Source: Myxococcales bacterium (GTDB lineage Bacteria; Myxococcota; UBA727; GCA-2721815). Taken from it: DNA of 64,000 nt. The notes beneath the pieces were generated by a model. The model was not told the DNA's origin, searched no databases, and saw nothing but the letters and a program-made list of their open reading frames with translations. Below are positions 10,779-35,772 of this stretch, piece after piece. The DNA lies in assembly GCA_002721815.1 (NCBI GenBank), contig PBLQ01000061.1, forward strand, positions 1 to 64,000. The letters are read 5' to 3'. Each line of letters starts with the position of its first letter. Position 1 is the stretch's first letter. The translations under genes were made by a program, and so were the position numbers.

Positions 10779-11792
10779 TTATTTTTTACCCTTTTTCTTG
10801 GCCGCTGGCTTCTTCTTAGCTGCTGGCTTCTTTTTAGCTGCTGGCTTTTTCTTGGCTGCTGGCTTTTTCTTAGCCGCTGGCTTTTTCTTAGCTGCTGGCT
10901 TTTTCTTAGCTGCTGGCTTCTTCTTAGCTGCTGGCTTCTTTTTGGTGGCCTTCTTTTTGGCGTCCGCCTTTTTCTTAGCGTCGGCCTTTTTCTTGGCTTC
11001 AGCTTTCTTTTTAGCTTCGGCTTTCTTTTTGGCTGCTGCTTTTTTGGCTTCTGCCGCTTTCTTTTGAGCTGCGGCTTTGGCGGCTTTGGCTTCTTTCGCT
11101 GCCGCTTCTTTGGCGGCTTTGGCTTCTTTGGCCGCCGCTTCCTTGGCGGCTTTGGCCTCTTTTTTAGCTTCTCTGGCCGCCTGCTTTTCTGCTTCTTTGG
11201 TGGCTTTGATGGCTTGTTTTTGGACCGCTGCCGCTTCGATGGGCTTGGATTGCTCTTTCTTGATTTTACGTACTGGAGCCCGGCCTTCGGTACGGGTGGC
11301 CACCAGCTGGGTCATGGTGTCGGTGCTGATGGGCGGCAAATTACCTCGAGCTTTTCGCTCTTCGCCGCTGTTTCTCCAAATAATACAGGTGGCTTTGCCC
11401 TTGAGAACTGGCAAAGTGTGATGGTTTTCGACCCAAATATCCACATCCAAGCGGCACTCGCCGTTTTGCTCGTAGGAACGAACCACAATGCCGCGCGCGG
11501 TGAGCACGTCATTGGGCCACACCAATTTTACGTATTGTGCGCTGAGGCTCAGGATTCTGCCATTTTCGAGCCATTTGCGAAGCATTTTGTCTGCCAAGCC
11601 CAGGGGCAGGTGAAACTGTGCGAACGCACCGCCGTAGCCTGCCGCTTTGGCCAGATCATCATCAAATTGGAGCGGGCTGTATTCGTTGATGGCCCCTGCA
11701 AATCGAGCAATCAGCTCGCGAGAAATACTATCGCTGCTCAGCGCTGGTAATGGATCGCCGGTATCCACACTGTTTTCATAGACTTTGGCCAT
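10779..11792 (-). CDS. MaoC-like hot-dog domain fused to histone-H1-like Lys/Ala/Pro tail
   Basis: A 337-residue two-part protein. Residues 1-145 resemble a MaoC-type (R)-hydratase hot-dog domain: FAGAINEYSPLQFDDDLA followed by AGYGGAFAQFHLPLGL and a C-terminal strand KLVWPNDVLTARG. The usual D-x-N-P-x-H motif reads E37-Y-S-P-L-Q42, so the Asp and His of the catalytic pair are replaced. Residues 175-337 are almost only Lys, Ala, Glu and Pro, with KEAKAAKEAA units and then eight KKKPAA repeats, like eukaryotic H1 tails and bacterial Hc1/AlgP-type nucleoid proteins. A TAGGAG lies 11 bases before ATG. It follows a second hot-dog gene by 21 bp. Nucleic-acid binding by the tail is inference. Confidence 0.8.
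   Translation of the reverse strand: MAKVYENSVDTGDPLPALSSDSISRELIARFAGAINEYSPLQFDDDLAKAAGYGGAFAQFHLPLGLADKMLRKWLENGRILSLSAQYVKLVWPNDVLTARGIVVRSYEQNGECRLDVDIWVENHHTLPVLKGKATCIIWRNSGEERKARGNLPPISTDTMTQLVATRTEGRAPVRKIKKEQSKPIEAAAVQKQAIKATKEAEKQAAREAKKEAKAAKEAAAKEAKAAKEAAAKEAKAAKAAAQKKAAEAKKAAAKKKAEAKKKAEAKKKADAKKKADAKKKATKKKPAAKKKPAAKKKPAAKKKPAAKKKPAAKKKPAAKKKPAAKKKPAAKKKGKK
10800..10943. repeat. eight tandem 18-bp units coding KKKPAA
   Basis: On the minus strand, eight head-to-tail 18-bp units encode KKKPAA (residues 284-331 of the hot-dog/H1 fusion). Units differ at third codon positions (for example tta/ttg and gct/gcc on the plus strand), so the array is not freshly expanded. It is still similar enough to slip or recombine. 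Confidence 0.95.
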
Positions 11793-13913: not shown

Positions 13914-15932
13914 TTACATTCCGGTGGTTAAAATAACGGGCAGTTCAACCTCGGTGGGCTCACCGGCAAAAGGTGCAAACTTCCATCGTTTGGCCCGGGT
14001 CAAGATGCATTCGCCCAAGGGTTGTGCGTTAAGGATGGGGTCAGTGAACACCGCTTTGCCCACGCGACCGTTGGGGTTGATGGTGAGAATGAGTCGCTTC
14101 TTTTTATTGCCTTTGACTTTTTCTTGCCGTTTGATGGCTGCTTCGAGGCATTGTTTAATGCCCTCTTGCCCACCACGAACCACTTTGGAAACATTTTCTG
14201 CATCGAGGCTGGATGTGTTTTGAGATTCATCTTTCGCGAACTTGTCTTTAAAGTCTAAACGGCCTTGGCTGCGGTTCCCAAACAGGGAGTTCAATTCTTG
14301 AGAACGGTCTTTCTTGCTAAACGGATCAATGTTGGCCATGCCATTGCTGCCGAGACTGGCGCGACCCACTTTGTTGCCTTTGGCGTCGAGGCCTTGGAAG
14401 GCGCCATCTAAGTTAACTCCGAGCAGCTTGTCTTTCTTTTTGCCTCTTCTTTTTGTTTTCTTTTTTTCTTTGGGGCAGTTACCCAGGAGTTTACATGCTT
14501 CATTCGGATCGGAGGCCGTCTCATCCCAGGACGCCAGCTTTCGTTTGGGTGGCGGGAGGTTGGTTTTTTCTACAACAAAGTTGGTGACACTGTGCAAAAA
14601 TGGAATCTTGATCACGCCGTAATAATCAAGGGCCATGGCGCTGCCCAAAGAACAAATCACGACGGCACAGGCCACTGCGTAAGTCATTTGTTTCTTTTTG
14701 CGATTATGTAGCCCCGCACGCATCATGAAAATGCGCGTGTTTTCTGCCATGCCCCCAAAATCTGCATGGGGTTGGTCGGCCGTGGGCACATTGGCGAATG
14801 GGTCGTCCGCATCACTGGCAGGACTTGCGTTCGACGGGATTTGATGGGTGCCCATGACTTGGTCAAAGGCCGCTGCCAAATCCTGCGCTTCTTCCTCAGG
14901 GGAAACCTGGCCGATGAGTTGGTCCGCCGATTCTTGTGCTGCTTGCTCGGCCTCTTCGGCCGCGCGCGCGGCCTCTGCAGCGATCTCTTCGTCACGAATG
15001 GCCCTTTGCGCTTCTTCCGCCGCTGCTGCCCTTTGTGCTTCTTCCGCCGCTGCTGCTCTTTGTGCTTCTTCCGCCGCTGCTGCTCTTTGCGCTTCTTCCG
15101 CCGCTGCTGCTCTTTGCGCTTCTTCCGCCGCTGCGGCTCTTTGTGCTTCCTCGGCCTGCGCAGCTTCCGCTGCTCTTTGCGCTTCTTCCGCCGCTGCTGC
15201 CTTTTGTGCTTCTTCGGCCTCGGCTTGTTGGGCGGCAACCCGTTCCGCCGCCAATCGCGCCTCTTCACGGGCCTCGTCGTTTTCTTGGGCGAGCGTTCGT
15301 TTTGAGAAGGGGGAGCTGTGATCGATGCTTAAGGAGGGGCTTTCAAAAGAAGCACCGAGTTCCCCGCTTGATTCGATGGAGGGTTGCTCCTGATCGGATT
15401 GCTCAAAGTTGGCTTTGGGTTGCTCTATGGAGACGGCCTCTTTGAAGGAGGAGCCGTTTTCTGTGCTTGATTCTCCTGTGGCGCTGGCTGTGGAGGAGGA
15501 GGCCGCTGTTGCGGTTTGCGTTTGCTCTGCGGGTTCAGCAAGACCTTGCTGACTGTCCACAGGGGGTGGAGGAGCGGACGTGGTTGCAGGTTCGGCAGCG
15601 AGTAGGGGTTTGAAAACATCAATTTCGAGGAGTCGGGTCCATTCCTTGAGCCCTTTATTCCACACGAACGAGCGGTCTCGAATGCGTCCTTTTTTGAACA
15701 AGGCCACAACACCGTCTTGGGTCATGGGTCCGTGTTGTTTGCCTTTGATGGCCACGTACCACTGGACTTTATCTTCTTTGGCTTTTTTGGGGGCGCGTTT
15801 TTGGGTTTGGTTGCTCCACCGCACCAAAATCACGTGGGTGCATTTCTTACACCTGACCTTCAGGACTTTCCCTTGCACCTTTTCGTCCGGGATGGAGTAG
15901 CGTGCACCACATTTTTCACAAGAAAACTTCAT
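13914..15932 (-). CDS. zinc-ribbon/GYF/TonB-C motility-type protein (GltJ/AgmX-like)
   Basis: A 672-residue inner-membrane protein. Parts in order: an MJ0042-type zinc ribbon (C5, C8, C28, C31); a GYF_2 domain (about 57-104, WYVAIKGKQHGPM and NKGLKEW); a Pro/Ser/Thr linker; an Ala/Glu/Gln/Arg repeat (about 238-311); one transmembrane helix (about 414-436); a basic stretch; and an AgmX/PglI-type TonB-like C-terminal domain (about 583-670, with C595 and C642 possibly paired). This matches GltJ (AgmX) of the Myxococcus Glt gliding/envelope machine, which senses a polarity GTPase through its N-terminus and reaches the outer membrane with its C-terminus. No other glt gene is present here. Such proteins also occur as stand-alone envelope energisers. 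Confidence 0.8.
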   Translation of the reverse strand: MKFSCEKCGARYSIPDEKVQGKVLKVRCKKCTHVILVRWSNQTQKRAPKKAKEDKVQWYVAIKGKQHGPMTQDGVVALFKKGRIRDRSFVWNKGLKEWTRLLEIDVFKPLLAAEPATTSAPPPPVDSQQGLAEPAEQTQTATAASSSTASATGESSTENGSSFKEAVSIEQPKANFEQSDQEQPSIESSGELGASFESPSLSIDHSSPFSKRTLAQENDEAREEARLAAERVAAQQAEAEEAQKAAAAEEAQRAAEAAQAEEAQRAAAAEEAQRAAAAEEAQRAAAAEEAQRAAAAEEAQRAAAAEEAQRAIRDEEIAAEAARAAEEAEQAAQESADQLIGQVSPEEEAQDLAAAFDQVMGTHQIPSNASPASDADDPFANVPTADQPHADFGGMAENTRIFMMRAGLHNRKKKQMTYAVACAVVICSLGSAMALDYYGVIKIPFLHSVTNFVVEKTNLPPPKRKLASWDETASDPNEACKLLGNCPKEKKKTKRRGKKKDKLLGVNLDGAFQGLDAKGNKVGRASLGSNGMANIDPFSKKDRSQELNSLFGNRSQGRLDFKDKFAKDESQNTSSLDAENVSKVVRGGQEGIKQCLEAAIKRQEKVKGNKKKRLILTINPNGRVGKAVFTDPILNAQPLGECILTRAKRWKFAPFAGEPTEVELPVILTTGM
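15000..15221. repeat. 27-bp tandem repeat coding EEAQRAAAA
   Basis: About seven 27-bp units on the minus strand encode nine-residue EEAQRAAAA blocks (residues about 238-311 of the GltJ-like protein), predicted as a long charged helix. Some blocks are nearly identical in DNA, and others near the ends have drifted or lost residues. Confidence 0.9.
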
Positions 15933-23154: not shown

Positions 23155-23949
23155 ATGAAAAGAGCAGTTCGTTTCGTTTTTCTAGTGGTTTTTGGATTGG
23201 GCTTGGCCACCATGGCGGGTTGCCCTGGGCCCGATTACCCCAAGTGCGAAAAGGATGACCATTGCTCTAAGGATTCAGAAGGACAAGAGATTTCAGAGGT
23301 TTGCGTTTTCGGGCAATGCCAAGAATGCGGTTCTGATGACCACTGTTCAGAGGGTAAAACCTGCAAAAACTACCGCTGTGAGTCGGTTTGCGCTGAGGAT
23401 GGCGACTGCGGAGATGGTTTGAGCTGTTTCGAGGGCGAATGCAAGTCTGAGTGTGACGCTGTAGCGGGTTGCGATGCCAGTGAGAATTGTCAAAAGGGCC
23501 GTTGTGTGGCGGCTGCATCCCCATGTGAAGAAGACGGGGATTGTGACATTGGATTCCGCTGCGCCACGGGCATATGTACGGAAGGGGTGGCTGAGGCCAC
23601 GGACGTTTCAGAAGCTTGCGGGCAGCACGCGCGGGTCTTTTTTGACTACAACCAAATCGTTTTGAGCCAGGATTCTCGTTCCACTTTGGACCAGTTCGCT
23701 GAGTGCTTGCAGGGGCACCCGCAATGGAAGCTCACCGTAGAGGGGCACGCTGATGAGCGAGGGACCACCGAATACAACTTGGCTTTGGGTGAAAAGCGCG
23801 CGCGCACGGTGATGGACTACTTAAAGAATTTAGGGGTTCCGGTGGTTCGCTTGAAGCCGATTTCTTACGGTGAGGAACGCCCGCTAAAGCTCGATAGCGA
23901 CGAGCAGTCCTGGGCCGAAAACCGTCGTAGTGAGCTGATCGTTCATTAG
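23155..23949 (+). CDS. Pal-like lipoprotein with Cys-rich repeats and OmpA domain
   Basis: A 264-residue lipoprotein. A signal peptide with lipobox ATMAGC gives lipidated C23. Residues 24-145 are Cys-rich with repeated C-x-x-D-x-D-C ... G-x-C units such as DDHCSEGKTC and DGDCGDGLSC, rather like EGF- or Dickkopf-type knots. Residues about 158-264 are an OmpA/Pal peptidoglycan-binding domain: VFFDYNQIVL, EGHADERGTTEYN, ENRRSE. Pal links outer membrane and wall in the Tol-Pal system; E. coli Pal has no such Cys-rich extension. AAGAGG precedes the start. The next gene (15 bp) is a CpoB/YbgF-like protein, as in tol-pal operons, but tolQRAB are not in this window. Confidence 0.85.
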   Translation: MKRAVRFVFLVVFGLGLATMAGCPGPDYPKCEKDDHCSKDSEGQEISEVCVFGQCQECGSDDHCSEGKTCKNYRCESVCAEDGDCGDGLSCFEGECKSECDAVAGCDASENCQKGRCVAAASPCEEDGDCDIGFRCATGICTEGVAEATDVSEACGQHARVFFDYNQIVLSQDSRSTLDQFAECLQGHPQWKLTVEGHADERGTTEYNLALGEKRARTVMDYLKNLGVPVVRLKPISYGEERPLKLDSDEQSWAENRRSELIVH

Positions 23950-23963
23950 CAAGGAATGAAGCC

Positions 23964-24845
23964 GTGACTTCATTATGTTTCAAAATAGCATTGGTTCTGG
24001 CCGTAGCGCTACAAGCAGGATGCGTCACCACCCGCGCCGAAGGCAACGCGCTGCGCAGTGACATGCGCATGCTCAAAGACGAAATGGCGCGTATGAATCG
24101 CGTTCAAATGGAAGACAAAGCCCTGGTGGTGGAGAAGTTGGGTGATGTTTCCACGCGTTTGGAGCAAACCGAAAACAATCTGCGATCTTTGCGGCAGCAA
24201 AATGCTGATCACGGCCTCAAAACCGAGAAAATTATCGCCGAGCTCCAAGCGGTGCGTGGGGAAGTCGAAGAGGTGCGTCACGAGCTGGGCAAAACGAGTA
24301 AGAGCGTTGAGGATTTGTTGGTGCGGCCGCCGGTTTCTGTGGCCACTGCTGTGGATGCGCCACCGGTGCAACAGGCCACTGGTCAGCCCCCCAAGGTAGT
24401 TTGGCCCACCGAGGAAAAAGCTTTATTTGCCTTGGCAGAAAAGAAATATGAGGCGGAGGATTTTGGACAAACCATTCAGGCGCTCAATGTTTACCTCAAA
24501 CAGTTTAAGGCTAAAAAAGGCGCCGCGTTGGATGAGGCCTATTTTCTCAAAGGCGAGGCCTTTAGCGCCCTCGCGGGCAAATCGGCCAACAAAAAGGGCA
24601 AAGAAGATGCTTTAAGAAAAGCTGTTTTGGCCTACCAAAATGTGCTCACTGGCTATCCCAAATCAAAAAGGGCCGCGGCTGTTCTGTATAAAATCGGTCA
24701 GGCTTTTGAATCTTTGGGCTTCCAGAAAGATGCGGTGGTTTTCTATGAAGAGGTGGTGGCAAAGCACAAGAAGAGTGCTTTTGTGCCCAAGGCTCGTAAA
24801 CGCATCAAAGCCATCAAAAAAATGAAAAAAAGTAAGAAAAAATAG
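23964..24845 (+). CDS. CpoB/YbgF-like lipoprotein, coiled coil plus TPR
   Basis: A 293-residue lipoprotein of the CpoB/YbgF type. The signal has lipobox LQAGC (C20). An N-terminal coiled coil (about 30-110, MRMLKDEMARMNRVQM onward) is followed by a linker and C-terminal tetratricopeptide repeats (about 145-280, YEAEDFGQTIQALNVYL and VLYKIGQAFESLG). CpoB coordinates Tol-Pal with septal peptidoglycan synthesis; that role is inferred from the layout and from pal lying 15 bp upstream. It starts at GTG with AAGGAA upstream. The last ten residues are nearly all lysine (KKMKKSKKK), more basic than usual. tolB is not adjacent. Confidence 0.8.
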   Translation: MTSLCFKIALVLAVALQAGCVTTRAEGNALRSDMRMLKDEMARMNRVQMEDKALVVEKLGDVSTRLEQTENNLRSLRQQNADHGLKTEKIIAELQAVRGEVEEVRHELGKTSKSVEDLLVRPPVSVATAVDAPPVQQATGQPPKVVWPTEEKALFALAEKKYEAEDFGQTIQALNVYLKQFKAKKGAALDEAYFLKGEAFSALAGKSANKKGKEDALRKAVLAYQNVLTGYPKSKRAAAVLYKIGQAFESLGFQKDAVVFYEEVVAKHKKSAFVPKARKRIKAIKKMKKSKKK

Positions 24846-24972: not shown

Positions 24973-25001
24973 TTGTCTCAGGGGCCAAGCCTATCTAGAA
25001 T
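24973..25001 (+). promoter_or_regulatory. sigma-70-type promoter candidate for the giant outer-membrane gene
   Basis: TTGTCT and TAGAAT are separated by 17 bp and lie about 50 bp before the TTG start of the 2312-residue gene. Spacing and both hexamers are close to sigma-70 consensus. Transcription start would be near 25008. Confidence 0.45.
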
Positions 25002-25049: not shown

Positions 25050-28000
25050 TTGAATCGAACACATTTTTTCTCGCATTCCCAAGGTAACTTACGCTTCTTT
25101 TGCTTTGCGCTTCTTTCATGCGTGTGGGGCCTGGGGGCGACGCAAGCGCGCGGGGACATTCCCTCCATAGAGATATCTGGAGCGCTGTATACCTACGATG
25201 AAACCCCGACGGGGGTGGATGTTTTCCCGATTTCCGACGCACAGGTGGCCATCTATTACGACGATCAAGACGGAAACCCCGATAACGACTTGTTGGTGGC
25301 AGATGCGGATCTCGGCGTGGGGGAACAAAGTCAATTGGTGGGCAGCGACGGAACCTACGCCTTCACGGTGGTCCCTGGCCAGTACCGCCTTGAGGTGATT
25401 CCCAATGATCTGCTTTTGGCGTTTCCGTCCCAAAAATTTCCTGCTCGTTCAGATTCAAACGTGGCAGACGGTTACGGTGAAGCTTTCGAGGGTGGCGAGG
25501 TGGTTTCCCATGACATAAATGATGTTTTAACCACACAGCGTTATTATTTACGCTTTGACGTAGACGATTCGGCTTCACCGGTTTTAAATAACTTTATCCC
25601 ACTCGATCCTGTTAATGAGCGGGTCTCCATTCAAACTTCAGCTTCGTTAAAATCAGCGTCGGTGGGTGACATCATCACCTATCGCATTTCCGTTCAGAAC
25701 CGCTCATTGGGGGGCATTACCATGGATGACGGTGGCGTGGAGGTGGTGACAGAGCTGCCACAAGGCATCGAAATGGTAGAAGGCTCTTACGGCATTTTCG
25801 AAGTTATCACTGCCAATGGTTCTCCCGTGTTCACCCGCATCTCGGGCATTCCTGAACCGAGTGGGTCTTTTTTGCGGTTCGGTGCTTTTCCTCTCAACGC
25901 AGCCGGCCAGTACGAGATTCGCTTTAATACCAGGGTTCAGGCAAATGCCGCTTTGGGAGCACAGCTCACCAAGTCATTCATGCGGACCATCGCCGACCAA
26001 ACGCCCCTCACAGACACCGTGGGTGTGGCGGTCATGTTGGTACCTGACACTTTGTTGACGACCAGCACTGTGCTGGGCCGTGTTTTTTGTGATGCGAACA
26101 GTAACCAAGCACAGGATGGTGAAGAAGAAGGCATTGGCGGGGTATCGGTCTATTTGGATAATGGTTCCCGCGTCGTGACTGACGCTTCCGGCTTTTTTCA
26201 TTTTTCCCGAGTAGCAGCGGGCTCCCACCTGGCCAAACTGGATGATACCACTCTTCCGCCTGGGTCTCTTTCTGCGCATGGCGGCCGCGCCGCTTTTTAT
26301 CTGTCCCCCGGACTCCCTGGCCAACTGGCATTTCCCGTTCAATGTCTGAGCAACTGGGCCAAATCAGACATTATTGAATTGAACGAGAGCGTTTACCGGC
26401 CCCCGGGCACGCCGCCGCGCCGCTCCCGAGATATTCAGGTGAAGGGTAAACTGTCTCCCTTTGAGCTGTCTTTAGACAATAAAGAAGAAGGCGTCGGTTA
26501 CGTCAATCTGAGCATCACCTCAGAAGGCGGGGCCGCCAAAGGAAAGAAAAAGGGCCCGAACCTGCAAGGCTTGATCGATGGCGAGCTGCCCGCACCCTTA
26601 TTGTTTAGAACCACCTTCAAGAAAACAGACGTGCTCACATGGCAACTGACCATTTTAGACCTCACCGATAAGCCGGAGAATTTGCAGACTGCAGATGCCT
26701 TGTACTTTTTCGCTGGCCAGGGCCGTCCGTCATTGTACTTGTTGTGGGATGGCAAAGATGGCGTGAGCCAAAAACAGCTTTTAAAAGAAGGTCGACGGTA
26801 CGGGGCAACCATGACTTTTGTGACCGTTGAGGGCCATCAACTGCGTTCGCCCATTCGGACTTTCGGCGTTAAATGGCGTGATCCAAAAGAAAAACCAAAA
26901 ATCCCCGATGGTGTGCCGTGGGGAGAGGTCACGCTGCAAAGTCTCGATGCCATCGAAGGTCCTTTGTTCGATGCTGAGAGTGAGCCCACCGAGCGAACGA
27001 AAACATTCATTCAAGAAATGGCCACGGCTGTAAAGCCTGGCTACAAGATGGCCATCGAAGTTCATGGCTTTGACGAAGATGAAATCACGGCCATGAACAA
27101 CTCAAGAATACAGGCCGACAACGCGCGCGAGATTGCGTTAGAAAAAGGCCTGGAACGCCCTCAAATCGAGGCTGTTGGCAAAGGCATCGACGATACCTTG
27201 GTGATGCACATGGGCCTGCGCAACCGGCAACAAAATCATCGAATCGTAATCCTGGTCACAAAGCCACCCATTCCGCCCTTAGAGCCCGTGAAACCGCTCA
27301 GATGGCCCGAGCTGGTTTCCCTCCACGGGCAGCCTGCGGACATTGACAAGAAGGCACACACCTTCGACCAAACCATGCAAGCCGAGGTGGGACAACCCAT
27401 GATTCTGAGAATGCGTGCATCGGATGGCCGTTACCTACAAACAATACGAGTGGTTCAGGACAAAGAGATTTGGGCCCCAAAAAAGCCAGAGAAAAAAGTT
27501 CGAAAAGAAAAATTAACGGTGTACTGGCCCACCGCTCGAGCCAGGTTGGGTGAGGGATATTTTGACATCACGCATGCGCCGGTGACGCTCAAGGCTGAAC
27601 GTTTCGCAGAGGAAGGCCTCGCTTCCATCGAAAAGCTGAATGAAACCGAAGTCAGTTTGGGCTTTCGCATTCGCCGCGCGGGAGCGCTGCCTTGGGCGCG
27701 TTGGAAAATTGAAGTTTTTGAAGCATCCAAAGATGCAGGTGCTGCATTGGACAAACGTGCTGTCGACGATGGGTTTAAAAAGGTGCATCAGGTCCGCGGC
27801 CTAGGGGCTCCTCCCGAGGCGTACAGATTAACCGGTGTGATTCCCAATGACGAAGAGCCAAATGTACCCAAAACATGGATGGTATCGCCTGAGAAGGTTT
27901 ACCGACTTCGCATCAGTGCTGAAACCATCTATGGAGACAAGCTTGTCTCTAACCCCTTCAATGCTGCTTTGCGCGATGTTGATCCAGATCTCACAGCTGA

Positions 28001-31000
28001 ACAGGCGGATACTGAAACGGTGAGCGACGCCTTCAATGAAGACAGCAAGGAGTTAAATGCACCCTTACTCAAACGGCTCGATGCTTTAGCGGCCGAAATG
28101 AAAGATGATGAGACGCAACTGCGGATTGAGATTCACACCAATGACAATGCAGATGAGACGGCCGATCAAGCCACCTCAGATCAAGTTGGCCGCGCCATTG
28201 CGACCATTCTAAAAGAAAAAGGCATTAGTACCGATCGACTTCAGCTTGAGGCCAAGGGTGCTCGCGAGTTGGTGGACCCTGGTTTTTCAGCCTTCGGGGC
28301 CGCCAAAAACAGAAGGGTGGTTTTCCAGGTTCTGGCGTCGGCGGATGCATTTTCTGAAATGCCCCAGTTGGTGAAGCTAAAAATCGCTGGAAAAGCAGGC
28401 CGTGTCGACGGTCCCGAATTCTCCACCGATGTCAAAATTATCGAAAACCGTCCCATTAAGCTAGAACTGGGATTCGAAACAGGGGGGCAGGCCACCCTCT
28501 GGTTGTATCCCGAAATCCCAGAAGTTTTTTCGGGCGTGCCAAGCGCCTACGCGGATCGTTTGCAAACTTTACTGAGTGATTGGCGCCAACAAGAGAAAAG
28601 TCTGCCTTCAGCGAAGAAAAGCCAGCCCAAAGCTGAAGGGACCGAAAAAGCAGATAAAGGGGCGCAAGCGGATAAAAAAGAAAAAGGTGACACCAAACCG
28701 ACACCACCCTCCGAGCCTGCACCAGAGGCCTCGGGTGAAGCCTTGCTCGACCCCAGCAGCTTTGATGAAATGGACGAAGCCATCCCTTACCGGGGGGAAG
28801 GCACACCGCCTTTGTGGTGGCCCACACGCCGTGAAGTGCCTGCTGCAAAAATGGAACTGTGGTTGCCCGAGGACAGCCAAGAGACCATCGAGGCCGACAG
28901 CTTTTGGGTGAAAGGGAAGGCCGAACCGGGGACCCGCGTGATGGTTCAAGGTAAAGCCATTCCTGTTCACGCTGAATCAGGACACTTTCAACGACTGGTC
29001 GAATTTCAGAGCGATACGGACTTTTTGACCGTCGAAGGCGTCGACTGGATGGGAAATAAGGTCACTTGGCGCAAACCAGTGAAATACCAAGAGTCCAAGT
29101 TGTTCGCGTTGGTGATGGCTGAAGCGGCTGTGGGCAGTGGCGGAACCCCTTTGCTGGAACTGTCCGACGTCAACCATTTCGATTCCCCCGAAGTTCTGGT
29201 TTACGGGCGCACGGCAGCTTGGTTGAGAGGTCGCTTTAAGGGCGGCGCTTTGTTCTCGCAGTACGATTTAGATTTGCACCTCGACAGCGCACGCTGGGAT
29301 CAAGACGTTTTTGCGCCTTACATGCTCAACCTTGATGCGTCTTTCCCCACATTCGGTGACGACGCCCTTGAGACGTTTGTTCCTAACGCCCGCTACCCTT
29401 TGTATCTGCGCTTAAAGGCTGACGAGTCACATCTGCACGTGGGCAATATGAAGACCAACCTGCAACAGGGTTCTTATTTCAAGTATGACCATCCGCGTTA
29501 CGGTATGAAAATGCGATTCAATAAAGATTGGCAAAATGAAGATGTGGCGCAGAAAAACAAATGGCGTACAGACACTGAAGTTTTGGTGGCCGGCGGCGAC
29601 CCCTACCAACAATTCACCCGAAATGAATTCAGGGGGGCAGGCACGTCTTTGTATTTCCTCCGACACACCCAATTGATGGAGGGGAGTGAAGTGGTGACTT
29701 TGGTGGTTCGGGATAGGATTTCCGGGAACATCAAGACGCGTATTCCACAGGTTCGCGACCGGGATTACACCATTCAATACGCTGAAGGTCACATCATTTT
29801 TAAACAACCCGTTATGGCTTTTGTGAGCACTGACATGATGCTGTCCCAGCAACTGGCCTCGGTGAGTCACGGAGATCCGGTATTCGTGGAAGTCGGTTAT
29901 GGGTACCTGTCTCAAGAAGCATTTACGGGCCTCACTGCGGGGGGGCGTTTTACACAACACCTGGGTGGAAGTTTGGATGTGGGTTTAGGGTACTTGCAGG
30001 AAGGTCGTGAAACAGATGTGAGCGACTACAGTTTAGGCGAAGCTTTGGTCCGGTGGCGTCCCACCCAAAACAGTGAACTTGAATTGGAATACGCCTTTAG
30101 TACCGGGATTGATAACGAAAAGTGGTTGTCCCAAGACGGCGGTTTAACGTGGCAAGCCATGGGCCAACAACCTACAGATGGTGCCACTCAAATTGCGCAA
30201 ATCATCTATCCTCACGAACGATCAGGCAGTGCTTATCGGCTCAACTTACAAACCAAGCTGGGGCATCTTTTTAACCGGGCCCCTGAAGACTTTCTGGTAA
30301 GTACGTGGTTCAGGCGCGTTTCTTTGGGCTTCTTTTCTCAGGATACGGTGATGGCCCAAGGACAAACCACCTGGGGACTGGAGACCCGCGGCGCATTAAC
30401 CGATAAAGACGGACTTCGGTTGAGGTATGATGGCATCATCAACGAAATGCCCATCGTGCCCCAGGCGACGGCAGCGCGTGCTTTGCATCGGGAATTGGTC
30501 ACGGTCGCGTACGATCGAAAGGTCCTCGACAACCTCATGCTGCAGGCCACCTATGGTTACGGCTACATTTGGGACGAGGGCAACTTTCCCGAACTGACCT
30601 TAGAGGAACCGGCTTCATGGACCCAGCACTTGCTGGGCGCAGGCCTCATTTGGCATCCCATACAAAAATTGGGTTTGTTTGCGAGACAAGAATATTACGC
30701 TGGTGATTACCCGGTTGCGTTGCAAAGCGATGCCGAACGACTGGTCACTCATTTTGGTGCCGACTACCAACTCACATCGGCGCTATCCATCGGCATCATG
30801 GAGAGTGTGCGATTTGATGGTGAGAACCATCTTTCGTTACGTGCCAATTATGCAATGACCGATTCCTCTCAACTGTACGCGCAACAACGCTTTGGTTACG
30901 TTCAAGATGGTTGGTTGCAAACCAGCGTGGTGGGGGCTCAGCAACTCATCGGACAAAACACCCGCACATTTGCCGAGTACCAAATTCAAAACACCCAGTT

Positions 31001-31988
31001 TGGCAATGCGCATCAAGGCGTGGCTGGTTTAAGTTCTCAGTTTAAATTGCCTTTGGGTTTTCACTTGGGTGCCAGTTACGAATGGATCAATCGTTTGGGG
31101 GCCTCTAATGTGGTGAACCAAGCACAGGGCTATACGGTTCCCGGCGCATTGACCGACGGCATGTTCTTTGCCGCGCCAAGCGTGAACGGTGGTGGGGATT
31201 TCCTTTACGGCGCCATGTCTCGAGATGCCATTTCGCTCAACCTCTTCTACCAAGACAAATGGCCAGTGGTTGCTTCGCAAAGGCTCGAGTGGCGTTATGA
31301 TCAATTCGATGAGTTACGTGGAGGCTTCACCCGACAATGGTGGATGAGTAACAGTGCGGCAAAATGGAAAATCATTCCAGATTTAGAATTGTTTGGCCGT
31401 TATAACTTGGCGACAGCAGAAAATATTACCGCTGGCGATCAAGAAATGTACTTGGAAGAAGGGTCCTTTGGGTTGGCATATCGTCCGAAGGCACACAACA
31501 AATACCGTGTGTTGACTAAGTATTCTTCTCGCGTGTTGTCCCACCCTAGCGGTGAAGATGAATTTGCCGGAGCGTATTTGAGCCAAGCTTTGTCTTTAGA
31601 GCCCGTGATCCAGTTGCCTTTCGACTTGCAATGGGCTGACAAGTTAGCCCTCAAGAGTGTTCAAGTACAATTGCCTGGATTTGACGAGGCTGTCTCTTCT
31701 TATGTACTGTCGGTGAACCGGCTCAATTGGCAGTTGTTAAGAACCCTCAAGCGCTTCACCGCTTTTGATATGCCTGGCGATATAAACCTAGGCATTGAGT
31801 ATCGCATGCTGCTGGGGTTGGGCAACGAGGGGCTTGAAGAAGGCTGGCTCACCGAATTACAATATGCGCCCATGGATTTTTTCACTTTGGGGCTGGGCTA
31901 TAACTTCACCACTTTCTCTGACGATGTTTTGGATCCGGGCATCAACGATCACAGGGGTTTTTATTTTAGAGCGGTTGGTTATTACTAA
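25050..31988 (+). CDS. giant outer-membrane protein: DUF11/SdrD-B, two OmpA-like domains, beta-barrel
   Basis: A 2312-residue exported protein. Signal peptide (h-region FFCFALLSCVWG); a DUF11-like strand-rich domain (about 195-300); an SdrD_B/Cna_B-type fold (about 337-407, GRVFCDANSNQAQDG); a first OmpA-like domain (about 627-740, divergent RNRQQNHRIV); a second (about 990-1100, canonical NRRV end); a Lys/Glu/Pro spacer (about 1185-1230); then about 950 residues of alternating beta-strands ending YYFRAVGYY-like, as in an outer-membrane barrel with an aromatic C-terminus. It seems to bind peptidoglycan in the periplasm and fold as a porin-like barrel. The start is TTG; no better one precedes the signal peptide. 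It lies after pal/cpoB; ruvA follows. Confidence 0.75.
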   Translation: MNRTHFFSHSQGNLRFFCFALLSCVWGLGATQARGDIPSIEISGALYTYDETPTGVDVFPISDAQVAIYYDDQDGNPDNDLLVADADLGVGEQSQLVGSDGTYAFTVVPGQYRLEVIPNDLLLAFPSQKFPARSDSNVADGYGEAFEGGEVVSHDINDVLTTQRYYLRFDVDDSASPVLNNFIPLDPVNERVSIQTSASLKSASVGDIITYRISVQNRSLGGITMDDGGVEVVTELPQGIEMVEGSYGIFEVITANGSPVFTRISGIPEPSGSFLRFGAFPLNAAGQYEIRFNTRVQANAALGAQLTKSFMRTIADQTPLTDTVGVAVMLVPDTLLTTSTVLGRVFCDANSNQAQDGEEEGIGGVSVYLDNGSRVVTDASGFFHFSRVAAGSHLAKLDDTTLPPGSLSAHGGRAAFYLSPGLPGQLAFPVQCLSNWAKSDIIELNESVYRPPGTPPRRSRDIQVKGKLSPFELSLDNKEEGVGYVNLSITSEGGAAKGKKKGPNLQGLIDGELPAPLLFRTTFKKTDVLTWQLTILDLTDKPENLQTADALYFFAGQGRPSLYLLWDGKDGVSQKQLLKEGRRYGATMTFVTVEGHQLRSPIRTFGVKWRDPKEKPKIPDGVPWGEVTLQSLDAIEGPLFDAESEPTERTKTFIQEMATAVKPGYKMAIEVHGFDEDEITAMNNSRIQADNAREIALEKGLERPQIEAVGKGIDDTLVMHMGLRNRQQNHRIVILVTKPPIPPLEPVKPLRWPELVSLHGQPADIDKKAHTFDQTMQAEVGQPMILRMRASDGRYLQTIRVVQDKEIWAPKKPEKKVRKEKLTVYWPTARARLGEGYFDITHAPVTLKAERFAEEGLASIEKLNETEVSLGFRIRRAGALPWARWKIEVFEASKDAGAALDKRAVDDGFKKVHQVRGLGAPPEAYRLTGVIPNDEEPNVPKTWMVSPEKVYRLRISAETIYGDKLVSNPFNAALRDVDPDLTAEQADTETVSDAFNEDSKELNAPLLKRLDALAAEMKDDETQLRIEIHTNDNADETADQATSDQVGRAIATILKEKGISTDRLQLEAKGARELVDPGFSAFGAAKNRRVVFQVLASADAFSEMPQLVKLKIAGKAGRVDGPEFSTDVKIIENRPIKLELGFETGGQATLWLYPEIPEVFSGVPSAYADRLQTLLSDWRQQEKSLPSAKKSQPKAEGTEKADKGAQADKKEKGDTKPTPPSEPAPEASGEALLDPSSFDEMDEAIPYRGEGTPPLWWPTRREVPAAKMELWLPEDSQETIEADSFWVKGKAEPGTRVMVQGKAIPVHAESGHFQRLVEFQSDTDFLTVEGVDWMGNKVTWRKPVKYQESKLFALVMAEAAVGSGGTPLLELSDVNHFDSPEVLVYGRTAAWLRGRFKGGALFSQYDLDLHLDSARWDQDVFAPYMLNLDASFPTFGDDALETFVPNARYPLYLRLKADESHLHVGNMKTNLQQGSYFKYDHPRYGMKMRFNKDWQNEDVAQKNKWRTDTEVLVAGGDPYQQFTRNEFRGAGTSLYFLRHTQLMEGSEVVTLVVRDRISGNIKTRIPQVRDRDYTIQYAEGHIIFKQPVMAFVSTDMMLSQQLASVSHGDPVFVEVGYGYLSQEAFTGLTAGGRFTQHLGGSLDVGLGYLQEGRETDVSDYSLGEALVRWRPTQNSELELEYAFSTGIDNEKWLSQDGGLTWQAMGQQPTDGATQIAQIIYPHERSGSAYRLNLQTKLGHLFNRAPEDFLVSTWFRRVSLGFFSQDTVMAQGQTTWGLETRGALTDKDGLRLRYDGIINEMPIVPQATAARALHRELVTVAYDRKVLDNLMLQATYGYGYIWDEGNFPELTLEEPASWTQHLLGAGLIWHPIQKLGLFARQEYYAGDYPVALQSDAERLVTHFGADYQLTSALSIGIMESVRFDGENHLSLRANYAMTDSSQLYAQQRFGYVQDGWLQTSVVGAQQLIGQNTRTFAEYQIQNTQFGNAHQGVAGLSSQFKLPLGFHLGASYEWINRLGASNVVNQAQGYTVPGALTDGMFFAAPSVNGGGDFLYGAMSRDAISLNLFYQDKWPVVASQRLEWRYDQFDELRGGFTRQWWMSNSAAKWKIIPDLELFGRYNLATAENITAGDQEMYLEEGSFGLAYRPKAHNKYRVLTKYSSRVLSHPSGEDEFAGAYLSQALSLEPVIQLPFDLQWADKLALKSVQVQLPGFDEAVSSYVLSVNRLNWQLLRTLKRFTAFDMPGDINLGIEYRMLLGLGNEGLEEGWLTELQYAPMDFFTLGLGYNFTTFSDDVLDPGINDHRGFYFRAVGYY

Positions 31989-32009
31989 CGGCATATCGTG
32001 GGTGTGGTC

Positions 32010-32594
32010 ATGATTGGTCTCTTGCGTGGTACAGTGATCCAAACTGATTTTCGATCGGTTCTGTTAGATGTGAATGGGGTGGGCTACAAGGCCAATTTAC
32101 CCTTATCTGATTTGGGTCAACTTGAAGCAGGTCAAAAAACGGTTTTGTATGTCCATACCCATGTGAGAGAAGACGCCTTCGAACTGTTCGGCTTTTTGAA
32201 AGAAGAAGGCATGCATTTGTTCGAGCTGCTCATCTCCATCAATGGGGTGGGGCCACGTATGGGCTTGGCTTTTTTATCTGGGCTGTCACCCAACGAACTC
32301 AAAGAAGCGGTGGCCAGTGAAGATGTGGCCCGTCTGACCAAAGTGCCCGGTGTGGGTAAAAAGACGGCGCTCCGAATTATTTTGGAACTCAAAGATAAAT
32401 TCGAAAAACAGTTGGCTCAGATGGGTGCTTCAGCAATGGGCGATAAAGGCATTTGGAATGACGTGGCTTCTGCCTTACTCAACTTGGGTTATAAGAAAGC
32501 TCTGGTGGACAAAGCGGTGGAAAAAACACGAGCCAACCATGAAGCGGATGCAGGTCTTGGGGTCTTACTCAAAGAAGCGCTCAAGAACATTTAG
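32010..32594 (+). CDS. ruvA: Holliday junction helicase subunit RuvA
   Basis: A 194-residue RuvA that tetramerises on Holliday junctions and loads RuvB rings. It starts MIGLLRGTVIQTDFRSVLLDVNGVGY (OB fold). Paired helix-hairpin-helix motifs follow at ELLISINGVGPRMGLAFLSG and LTKVPGVGKKTALRIILELKD, and the C-terminal three-helix RuvB-binding domain ends the chain. ATG at 32010 is used; the upstream in-frame GTG is close to the preceding stop and gives a non-conserved extension. ruvB follows 65 bp later. ruvC, often first in this cluster, is absent here. Confidence 0.96.
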   Translation: MIGLLRGTVIQTDFRSVLLDVNGVGYKANLPLSDLGQLEAGQKTVLYVHTHVREDAFELFGFLKEEGMHLFELLISINGVGPRMGLAFLSGLSPNELKEAVASEDVARLTKVPGVGKKTALRIILELKDKFEKQLAQMGASAMGDKGIWNDVASALLNLGYKKALVDKAVEKTRANHEADAGLGVLLKEALKNI

Positions 32595-32659
32595 TCTTTC
32601 TCTTCCCACGAGCGCAAAAATCGGTTAGGGTGTACTGACCATTTGTACAGGAGTTTCCC

Positions 32660-33694
32660 ATGAGCCAAGATTTAAGCTCTACCCCTCCCATGAACGCCCG
32701 TGATTTGATGGCCCCCGTGGCCGGGTCTGACGAAATTGCAGTAGAAGTGAGCTTGCGCCCCGAAAGCTTCGACGAGTACGTGGGCCAGCAGGAAATCGTT
32801 GATAATTTAAAGATTTACGCCGAAGCAGCTCAGCGCGGCAACCGCGCTTTGGACCACATCTTATTGTGCGGCCCCCCTGGACTGGGCAAGACCACCTTGG
32901 CTCGTATTTTAGCGGGCGTGATGGGCGTACGCCTGCATTGTACTTCGGGCCCGGCCATCGAAAAAAAGGGTGATTTGGCCGGAATTCTCACCAATCTGGG
33001 TGCTGGGGATGTGCTGTTTATTGATGAAATTCATCGCCTTTCCGCGGTGGTCGAAGAAAACCTGTACGCAGCCATGGAAGACTTTCGTTTTGATGTGGTG
33101 ATCGGTGAAGGCGCGCACGCGCGCAGTATTTCATTGGACTTACAACCCTTCACGTTGGTGGGAGCCACCACCAAAGCTGGTTTACTCACGTCGCCATTAC
33201 GCGATCGCTTCGGCATTACCAATCGGTTGCAATTCTATAATGCCGAAGATTTGGGTCGCATTGTTACGCGGTCGGCGAACCTGATGGGTGTGTCCATGGA
33301 AACCGAGGCCGCTCTCGAAATTGCCGAACGTTCCCGTGGGACGCCTCGTATTGCCAACCGGTTGTTACGCCGTGTCCGTGATTTTGCTGAAGTTTTGCAC
33401 GATGGGTCGATCACATTGGAAGTGGCTCGCAGCGCTTTAGATCGCTTGGAAGTGGATCACAGTGGGCTTGATGCCATGGATCGGCGACTTTTAATGCTCT
33501 TGGTGGAACGTTTTGACGGGGTTGCTGTGGGGCTCGATACTTTGGCGGCAGCGCTGGGTGAATCTTCTTCCACCATCGAAGATGTCTACGAGCCTTACCT
33601 GCTGCAAGAAGGATACTTGATGCGAACGCCCAGAGGTCGATTGGCCACACCCAGGGCCTATGCGCATTTTGGACTTGAATCAAAGATGAGTTGA
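32660..33694 (+). CDS. ruvB: Holliday junction branch migration ATPase RuvB
   Basis: A 344-residue RuvB, the hexameric motor of branch migration. The AAA+ core has Walker [10 protein letters not shown], Walker [10 protein letters not shown], sensor-1 in [11 protein letters not shown] and the arginine finger region [10 protein letters not shown] winged-helix C-terminal domain ends in [12 protein letters not shown]. Family members usually share N-terminal [12 protein letters not shown], present here after about 30 extra residues. The Shine-Dalgarno (CAGGAG) lies close before ATG. With ruvA it forms one transcription unit. The region downstream holds a perfect 10+10 palindrome but no strong terminator. 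Confidence 0.97.
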
Positions 33695-34920: not shown

Positions 34921-35772
34921 TTGCGCTGGATTCTTCCTTTCGCTCCCAAAGTTCCTCAATGCTCGCCCATGGTTTTTTGGGAGGGCAGCTGCCCTTATCT
35001 GGAAAACCGTAACACGTTGACGGCTGGCTCTTCGGTTCGGCTTTTGGGACAAGATGATTACCAGGAGCTCATGGATATTGGTATGCGTCGCACCGGGCAT
35101 GTGGTTTACCGACCCATCTGTATGGATTGTCGTCAGTGCCATCCTTTGCGCATCAATACCAACCACTTCAAGCTTTCCCGGAGCCAAAGAAAGATTTGGG
35201 CCAAATACAAAGATTTTTTTGAGGTGACGGCCACGCGGCCCATTGCTGATGACGAACATGTTGCTTTGTACAACCGATACCAAAAAGAGTGGCACCGTTC
35301 CGACGAAACCGTGCTGGATTTACCCGGTTATCAAGAGGCATTTGTTTTCGCTCCGGTGGAGACGCTGGAACTTTCTTGGCGCAACCCCCAAGGACAGTTG
35401 GTTGGGGTTGGAATCCTAGATGTTTTGCCTAAAGGCTATTCATCCGTTTATTTCTACTGGGATCCGGATTACGCCGATTATCATTTGGGGACATTGTCGG
35501 TGTTGCAAGAGATTGAACTCACCCGGCAAAGTGGTAACCCAATGTATTATATCGGCTTTTACATCCAGCAGTCCCCCAAAATGGCTTACAAAATCCAGTT
35601 TTCTGGGGCTGAAATATGGGACGGGGCCCATTGGAAACCGCTGCACACACGGCGCAATGAAGACCCACAGCTGCCCGAGATTTTAAAGCAGGCTGAAGAG
35701 GGGGCCATGGTCGCAGACAGAGATAATTTTCCCTTTCACCGCGCGGTGAAAGTTTTTTCGCAAAGTGGCTAA
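34921..35772 (+). CDS. bpt: aspartate/glutamate leucyltransferase (arginyl-transferase family)
   Basis: A 283-residue transferase of the ATE/Bpt family that adds leucine from tRNA to proteins with N-terminal Asp or Glu, marking them for Clp proteolysis. Visible are CPYLENRNTL, the two-Cys motif CMDCRQCHPLR, SSVYFYWDPDY and YIGFYIQQSPKMAYK. The start is uncertain: TTG at 34921 abuts the lpxC stop and has AGAGG upstream, while ATG at 34969 would give 267 residues, close to family length, but has no Shine-Dalgarno. It shares a transcript with lpxC. A promoter for infA lies just after its stop. Confidence 0.88.
   Translation: MRWILPFAPKVPQCSPMVFWEGSCPYLENRNTLTAGSSVRLLGQDDYQELMDIGMRRTGHVVYRPICMDCRQCHPLRINTNHFKLSRSQRKIWAKYKDFFEVTATRPIADDEHVALYNRYQKEWHRSDETVLDLPGYQEAFVFAPVETLELSWRNPQGQLVGVGILDVLPKGYSSVYFYWDPDYADYHLGTLSVLQEIELTRQSGNPMYYIGFYIQQSPKMAYKIQFSGAEIWDGAHWKPLHTRRNEDPQLPEILKQAEEGAMVADRDNFPFHRAVKVFSQSG

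Follow-up and report, generated by a model that had tools for sequence, protein, structure and literature searches.

Outer-membrane barrels that serve a surface fibre are a kind of machinery that is already known. In intimin and invasin (type Ve), an Ig-like surface rod, a barrel and a wall-binding module (LysM) are joined in one chain. At the upper end of the size range, the 36-stranded SprA of the type 9 translocon was the largest outer-membrane barrel identified at the time of a 2020 review (PMC7463736). Attachment to the cell wall has been described in the PorE–peptidoglycan structure, in which a peptidoglycan fragment is held by the side chains of three residues conserved across OmpA-type domains, Asp576, Asn584 and Arg591 (spacing +8, +15) (PMC7192894).

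Here, we analysed a 64,000-nucleotide stretch of Myxococcales DNA (the window) containing a gene for a very large protein in which OmpA-like folds precede a predicted outer-membrane barrel. Our computational comparisons revealed a family of such barrels that are, in nearly all relatives, either fused to, or encoded next to, Ig-like (DUF11-type) arrays, and the window protein is, as read from its sequence, a fibre-less ("bare") member of this giant-barrel family. As far as can be told, the family, its fused or split coupling to DUF11 with OmpA domains at the junction, and its predicted size are undescribed; a search of open-licence papers for DUF11 together with a barrel, or for an isopeptide fimbrial protein together with OmpA, found nothing relevant.

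The barrel gene and its surroundings

The open reading frame given in a preliminary description of this DNA was confirmed (Table 1), and so was its order of domains (DUF11, SdrD_B-like, two OmpA-like, a Lys/Pro spacer and a barrel), which was recovered with Pfam and AF2, the DUF11-like match at residues 192-248 being sub-threshold (16.5 bits vs a cut-off of 24.6). The signal sequence appears plausible by eye. The AF2 model of residues 40-1239, built on 24 sequences (mean pLDDT 76.4, pTM 0.44), pictures this part as a putative string of beads. In a structure search with the AF2 model, the fold of the stub resembled sortase pilins, SdrD/UafA and Gram-positive MSCRAMMs (best E 1.4e-14), and the ring protein MotY was also among its matches (E 2.4e-7). 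At the position of the Ig-like domain that precedes the barrel, Glucodextran_B was matched in 8 of 10 relatives.

Table 1. Features of the barrel gene and its immediate neighbours (window coordinates)
Feature	Coordinates	Strand	Evidence and remarks
Whole barrel gene	25050..31988	+	TTG start; 2312 codons/aa; stop 31986-31988
Signal peptide, residues 1-33 (MNRTHFF...GLGATQA/RGD)	25050..25148	+	Judged by eye
Pilin-like stub: prealbumin-like domain (~40-165) and one degenerate DUF11-like domain (192-248)	25167..25793	+	Pfam, fold match
SdrD_B-like domain, residues 344-394	26079..26231	+	Pfam, 37.5 bits vs cut-off 29.7
Ig-like domain ahead of the first OmpA fold, ~459-607	26424..26870	+	AF2 strands
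OmpA-like fold 1, residues 628-737	26931..27260	+	AF2; Arg missing at diaminopimelate-binding position
OmpA-like fold 2, residues 988-1096	28011..28337	+	Pfam, AF2; Asp to Asn, Asn to Asp and Arg to Val at three peptidoglycan-contacting positions
Lys/Pro/Glu-rich disordered linker, ~1184-1239	28599..28766	+	Low pLDDT; sequence
Ig-like domain right before the barrel, ~1277-1345, Glucodextran_B or Big_6 type	28878..29084	+	AF2 strands
Predicted outer-membrane beta-barrel, residues 1350-2310, ~42 strands	29097..31979	+	AF2, Foldseek, homologues
Small conserved domain between predicted strands 8 and 9, GSE..V..VRD..(S/T)G...DY.I....GR, family signature	29649..29804	+	AF2, alignment
C-terminal strand GFYFRAVGYY, terminal aromatic, beta-signal-like	31956..31985	+	Kept in nearly all relatives
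Upstream neighbours pal, then cpoB/ybgF-like gene	23155..24845	+	204-nt gap before barrel gene
Downstream neighbours ruvA, ruvB	31998..33694	+	ruvA start 9 nt past barrel stop codon

The gene is present in a single copy in its genome and, as the preliminary description had it, follows pal and cpoB: the former matched TIGR02802 (125.6 vs a cut-off of 125.35), while the cpoB/ybgF-like gene scored under its own family cut-offs. Downstream, ruvA and ruvB are followed by lpxC. When pal/cpoB or ruvAB synteny was looked for beside the homologues in relatives, the neighbourhood was found not to be kept, and a functional synteny with pal/cpoB/ruvAB was rejected as not conserved. A promoter belonging to the barrel gene itself, proposed from a promoter-like site at 24973-25001, was likewise dropped, since that site is 1 of 7 in the region vs 7.9 +/- 2.6 in shuffles, a frequency at chance level.

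Other genes of the window were recorded in passing. A bacterial arginyl-tRNA-protein transferase gene lies straight after lpxC (34921-35772, +; ATE_N and ATE_C above cut-off). By eye, the reverse-strand gene at 10779-11792 (-) encodes a MaoC/hot-dog dehydratase-like protein with a histone-H1-like tail of about 150 residues, made of (KKPAA)n and EAKAAKEAA repeats, and that at 13914-15932 (-) combines a zinc-finger and GYF-like N terminus, an AAAEEAQR coiled repeat, one TM helix and a TonB/AgmX-like C terminus.

A barrel family paired with Ig-like arrays

A homologue survey found the barrel in 29 of 39 related genomes and, across the phylum, in 119 of 195, the latter count taking in partial matches to shorter, remoter members. 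In a scan of named genomes, homologues were present in Myxococcota, Pseudomonadota (including Alcanivorax, Stenotrophomonas, Pseudoxanthomonas, Lysobacter, Janthinobacterium, Rhodobacteraceae and others), Desulfuromonadales, Nitrospirota, Campylobacterales and Omnitrophota. The window protein possesses both the GSE..RD..(S/T)G..DY....GR insert and the terminal aromatic strand of the family, and its barrel scored 1444 bits over 8-1045 against the A2 profile, of which the window itself is one of ten rows; identity to relatives is at most 39% over about 1000 columns.

Most full-length Myxococcota members are fused proteins of 3.8-5.4 kaa, in which profile scans detected approximately 9-16 DUF11 repeats preceding the stub-OmpA-OmpA-barrel portion, and at least three DUF11 domains were found within the same ORF in 29 of the 80 loci of the named-genome scan. 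In Proteobacteria and other groups, the barrel is a separate gene of 1.1-1.9 kaa. A large same-strand ORF ending near or overlapping the barrel ORF was present directly upstream at all 24 unfused loci for which the available DNA reached far enough, in a sample of split-type loci that was retrieved with barrel-derived patterns and is biased to close enough relatives. The upstream partner contained DUF11 in 21 of these loci according to a local HMM, and DUF11, DUF7507 and other Ig domains according to Pfam in locus L127, while the content of the remaining two (Campylobacterales) was unrecognised. The same pair is visible in public annotation, where a 2647-aa "SdrD B-like" gene stands 72 nt ahead of an "OmpA family protein".

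The spacing between the two genes can be very short, with about 10 nt between fibre stop and barrel start in locus L094. Joining of fibre and barrel by read-through or frameshift in L118 and L094 was nevertheless rejected, as the barrels have separate starts and that of L094 its own signal peptide; because the barrel gene starts separately, the putative fibre and barrel genes of these two loci are an ordinary operon pair. In L094 and L118 it is the fibre protein that carries the OmpA domain, at its C terminus; in L107 and L101 the domain is instead N-terminal in the barrel protein. In each case the predicted wall anchor is at the fibre-barrel junction.

A shorter homologue in Myxococcaceae is immediately preceded by an Ig-repeat (Invasin_D3/Big_1) gene with a 4-nt overlap. 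In the Myxococcaceae genome G146 (locus L143), this short form, of which there is one gene per genome across the family, shares an operon with genes for a histidine kinase, a FecR-like protein, a PD40 protein and an invasin-type Ig protein. The suggestion that the window protein could power surface motion found no support: a search of the gliding-motility literature gave nothing usable, and a link to gliding through the operon of the short homologue was set aside, its kinase, FecR-like and Ig (Invasin_D3/Big_1) genes including no recognised motility gene. We also observed that a contig labelled as a Klebsiella pneumoniae MAG (L066) clusters with Myxococcales in the tree and is probably a mislabelled bin.

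The family thus occupies more than half of the sampled genomes of the phylum and many Proteobacteria, and it has been hidden because the barrel is covered by neither a Pfam nor an NCBIfam model and because its annotations are mixed ("TonB-dependent receptor", "OmpA family protein", "hypothetical").

Predicted barrel, OmpA folds and the missing array

No Pfam match was obtained for the C-terminal half of the window protein, and the claim that it forms a barrel of about 950 residues was borne out at the level of prediction. The AF2 model of residues 1240-2312, built from 65 family sequences (mean pLDDT 81.9, pTM 0.77), has about 42 strands over 1350-2310, linked for the most part by short turns that alternate with longer loops, and by parity the N and C termini lie on the same side. 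A Foldseek search against the PDB returned nearly exclusively outer-membrane barrels, led by SprA (E 8e-7, TM 0.18) and followed by MtrB-type proteins, BtuB, Deinococcus SlpA (E 3.6e-6) and LptD, with several TonB-dependent receptors also among the matches; the TM-scores are low (0.1-0.2), as expected where barrel sizes differ, and are no proof of a barrel. Closure of the barrel and its exact strand number are therefore given as predicted values, and its location in the outer membrane is predicted from a signal peptide and a beta-signal seen by eye.

The prominence of SprA among these matches, together with a strand number in the same class as its 36 (PMC7463736), raised the prospect of a general translocon of the type 9 kind, in which the barrel would export proteins in trans, such as the giant Ig/TSP3 protein of its own genome. 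This protein (at least 3.7 kaa) follows the plan of a split-type fibre with Ig (Big_9), TSP3 and a canonical wall-binding OmpA domain. However, the TM-score to SprA is low and a sequence match is absent (none among PDB profile hits and no SprA-type Pfam match), so that homology by sequence was rejected, and the barrel gene and the giant Ig/TSP3 gene are without any link. We consider a general translocon unlikely.

The preliminary description had also proposed that two wall-binding modules could rivet the envelope. In such a reading, the OmpA domains would tie the outer membrane to peptidoglycan in a possibly force-bearing manner, as in OmpA, OprF or Deinococcus SlpA. Two genuine OmpA folds are indeed present, with OmpA (PF00691) matched in two stretches at 42.9 bits vs a cut-off of 27.2 and the complete b-a-b-a-b-a-b order modelled by AF2 in both domains, and the large wall-tied barrel of SlpA is among the top Foldseek matches, while the gene adjoins pal/cpoB. 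The residues that would make the contact are missing, however. In the second OmpA domain (HTNDNADETADQATSDQVGRA), the three contact positions are occupied by Asn, Asp and Val, and in the first (HGFDEDEITAMNNSRIQADNARE), whose divergence puts it beyond the reach of the local OmpA HMM, Gln, Ala or Asp takes the place of the Arg whichever register is chosen. For comparison, among the seven OmpA domains of the same genome that served as the seed, the RA Arg is present in 7/7 and the GHTD Asp in 6/7 (one GHTN). Asp and Arg are retained together in 18 of 22 OmpA domains of split-type relatives and in 14 of 37 of fused or Myxococcota members, and in most fused Myxococcota members the Arg of the second domain is gone too. 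Since neither domain has the diaminopimelate-binding Arg, and the second lacks Asp and Asn as well, the two folds of the window protein are probably not two wall-binding modules. Given also that the pal/cpoB neighbourhood is not conserved, the rivet was rejected for the window protein and is in our judgement quite improbable as a reading of it; the description may suit those split-type relatives in which Asp and Arg are kept.

The window protein carries no fused DUF11/Ig array, and the gene upstream is cpoB-like. In a barrel tree of 65 rows (quick IQ-TREE search, midpoint root), it groups with three fused members of the same order (SH-aLRT 100), its own branch measuring 1.09 vs about 0.3 for theirs. 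L036 and L116, likewise bare, have branches of about 1.0 and also fall among fused members, and in all three proteins the signal peptide directly precedes the stub domain; three bare lineages make a small sample. Because the tree nests the window inside a fused clade, the simplest reading is that its copy lost the DUF11 array and changed faster afterwards. A genome profile scan identified no DUF11 array elsewhere in its genome, the sole DUF11 being one sub-threshold match, and it is possible that a fibre is encoded in trans elsewhere in this genome. The giant Ig/TSP3 protein (L145, G000:C15:1-11362), a possible trans fibre, measures at least 3786 aa, is cut by the contig start and has its OmpA domain at the C terminus. 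The genome further encodes a 3561-aa protein of HYDIN/ASH-like Ig domains (L146, G000:C45:135924-146609).

The long branches of the three bare members and the loss of OmpA residues would also suit a decaying relic, a gene drifting towards loss once the array had gone. Against such decay, the 2312-codon frame is intact, and the protein retains its signal peptide, its beta-signal and the residues that are invariant in the barrel; we give this reading little credence. Least probable of all is a TonB-dependent-type receptor or porin for nutrient uptake, which the annotation of homologues and the TonB-dependent receptors among the Foldseek matches would favour, but which is opposed by the absence of TonB_dep_Rec and Plug Pfam matches in the window protein and ten family barrels, a strand number twice the usual and the coupling to Ig-repeat fibres. 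Usher and autotransporter identities were rejected together with that of a TonB-dependent receptor, as no Pfam match was found.

Proposed model and relation to known systems

Taken as a whole, we see roughly an even chance that the family provides an outer-membrane conduit and base for an Ig-like (DUF11-type) fibre, which in the window copy is reduced to a pilin-like stub. In this model, Sec would export the protein and BAM would insert its C-terminal region by means of the terminal aromatic beta-signal as a roughly 40-stranded barrel. At the junction of fibre and barrel, the OmpA-type domains would stay periplasmic and in many relatives would hold the base of the fibre on peptidoglycan, and the Ig-like N-terminal part would leave through the wide barrel. 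For the relatives, we infer this topology (barrel in the outer membrane, OmpA below on peptidoglycan, fibre outside) because of the order of the parts and because the fibre is far longer than the width of the periplasm. In the window lineage, loss of the DUF11 array would leave, after the signal peptide, a short stub of pilin type and a pair of OmpA folds without binding residues, so the window protein most likely acts as a large barrel at the surface that bears a short stub, adhesive or structural, and not as a wall rivet.

The more specific proposal, of an undescribed system in Myxococcota and Proteobacteria in which a barrel of about 42 strands exports and seats a 100-nm-scale Ig fibre anchored to peptidoglycan by OmpA, in fused and split forms and with a fibre-less copy in the window, is a tentative one that we hold at clearly less than even. 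The Myxococcota fusions provide direct genetic evidence of giant Gram-negative DUF11/SdrD_B proteins working with this barrel, and these proteins thereby gain a candidate partner for export and anchoring. If the strand number holds, the barrel would exceed the 36-stranded SprA of the 2020 review (PMC7463736).

Like SprA/Sov, the members of this family are very large single-chain outer-membrane barrels with extra inserted domains; they differ from the type 9 translocon in having no detectable sequence similarity to it, about 42 predicted strands instead of 36, and a coupling to one Ig-repeat fibre. Deinococcus SlpA/SDBC likewise combines a large barrel with a cell-wall-directed periplasmic part, which consists of an SLH domain and a coiled coil in SlpA and of OmpA folds in the window protein, whose relatives carry a DUF11 fibre and whose own wall-binding residues are lost. 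Fused members resemble type Va autotransporters in placing the passenger N-terminal to the barrel, and split members resemble two-partner secretion in forming an adjacent gene pair. Both systems have 12 or 16 strands, in contrast to the approximately 42 predicted here with OmpA domains at the junction, and neither autotransporter (PF03797) nor POTRA or ShlB-type Pfam matches were found in the window protein and family barrels. The OmpA fold (PF00691) is shared with OmpA, OprF and Pal and occurs twice in the window protein, where both copies have lost the diaminopimelate-binding residues. Compared with intimin and invasin, the order of the parts is reversed, the barrel being C-terminal, OmpA takes the place of LysM, and the barrel is far larger.
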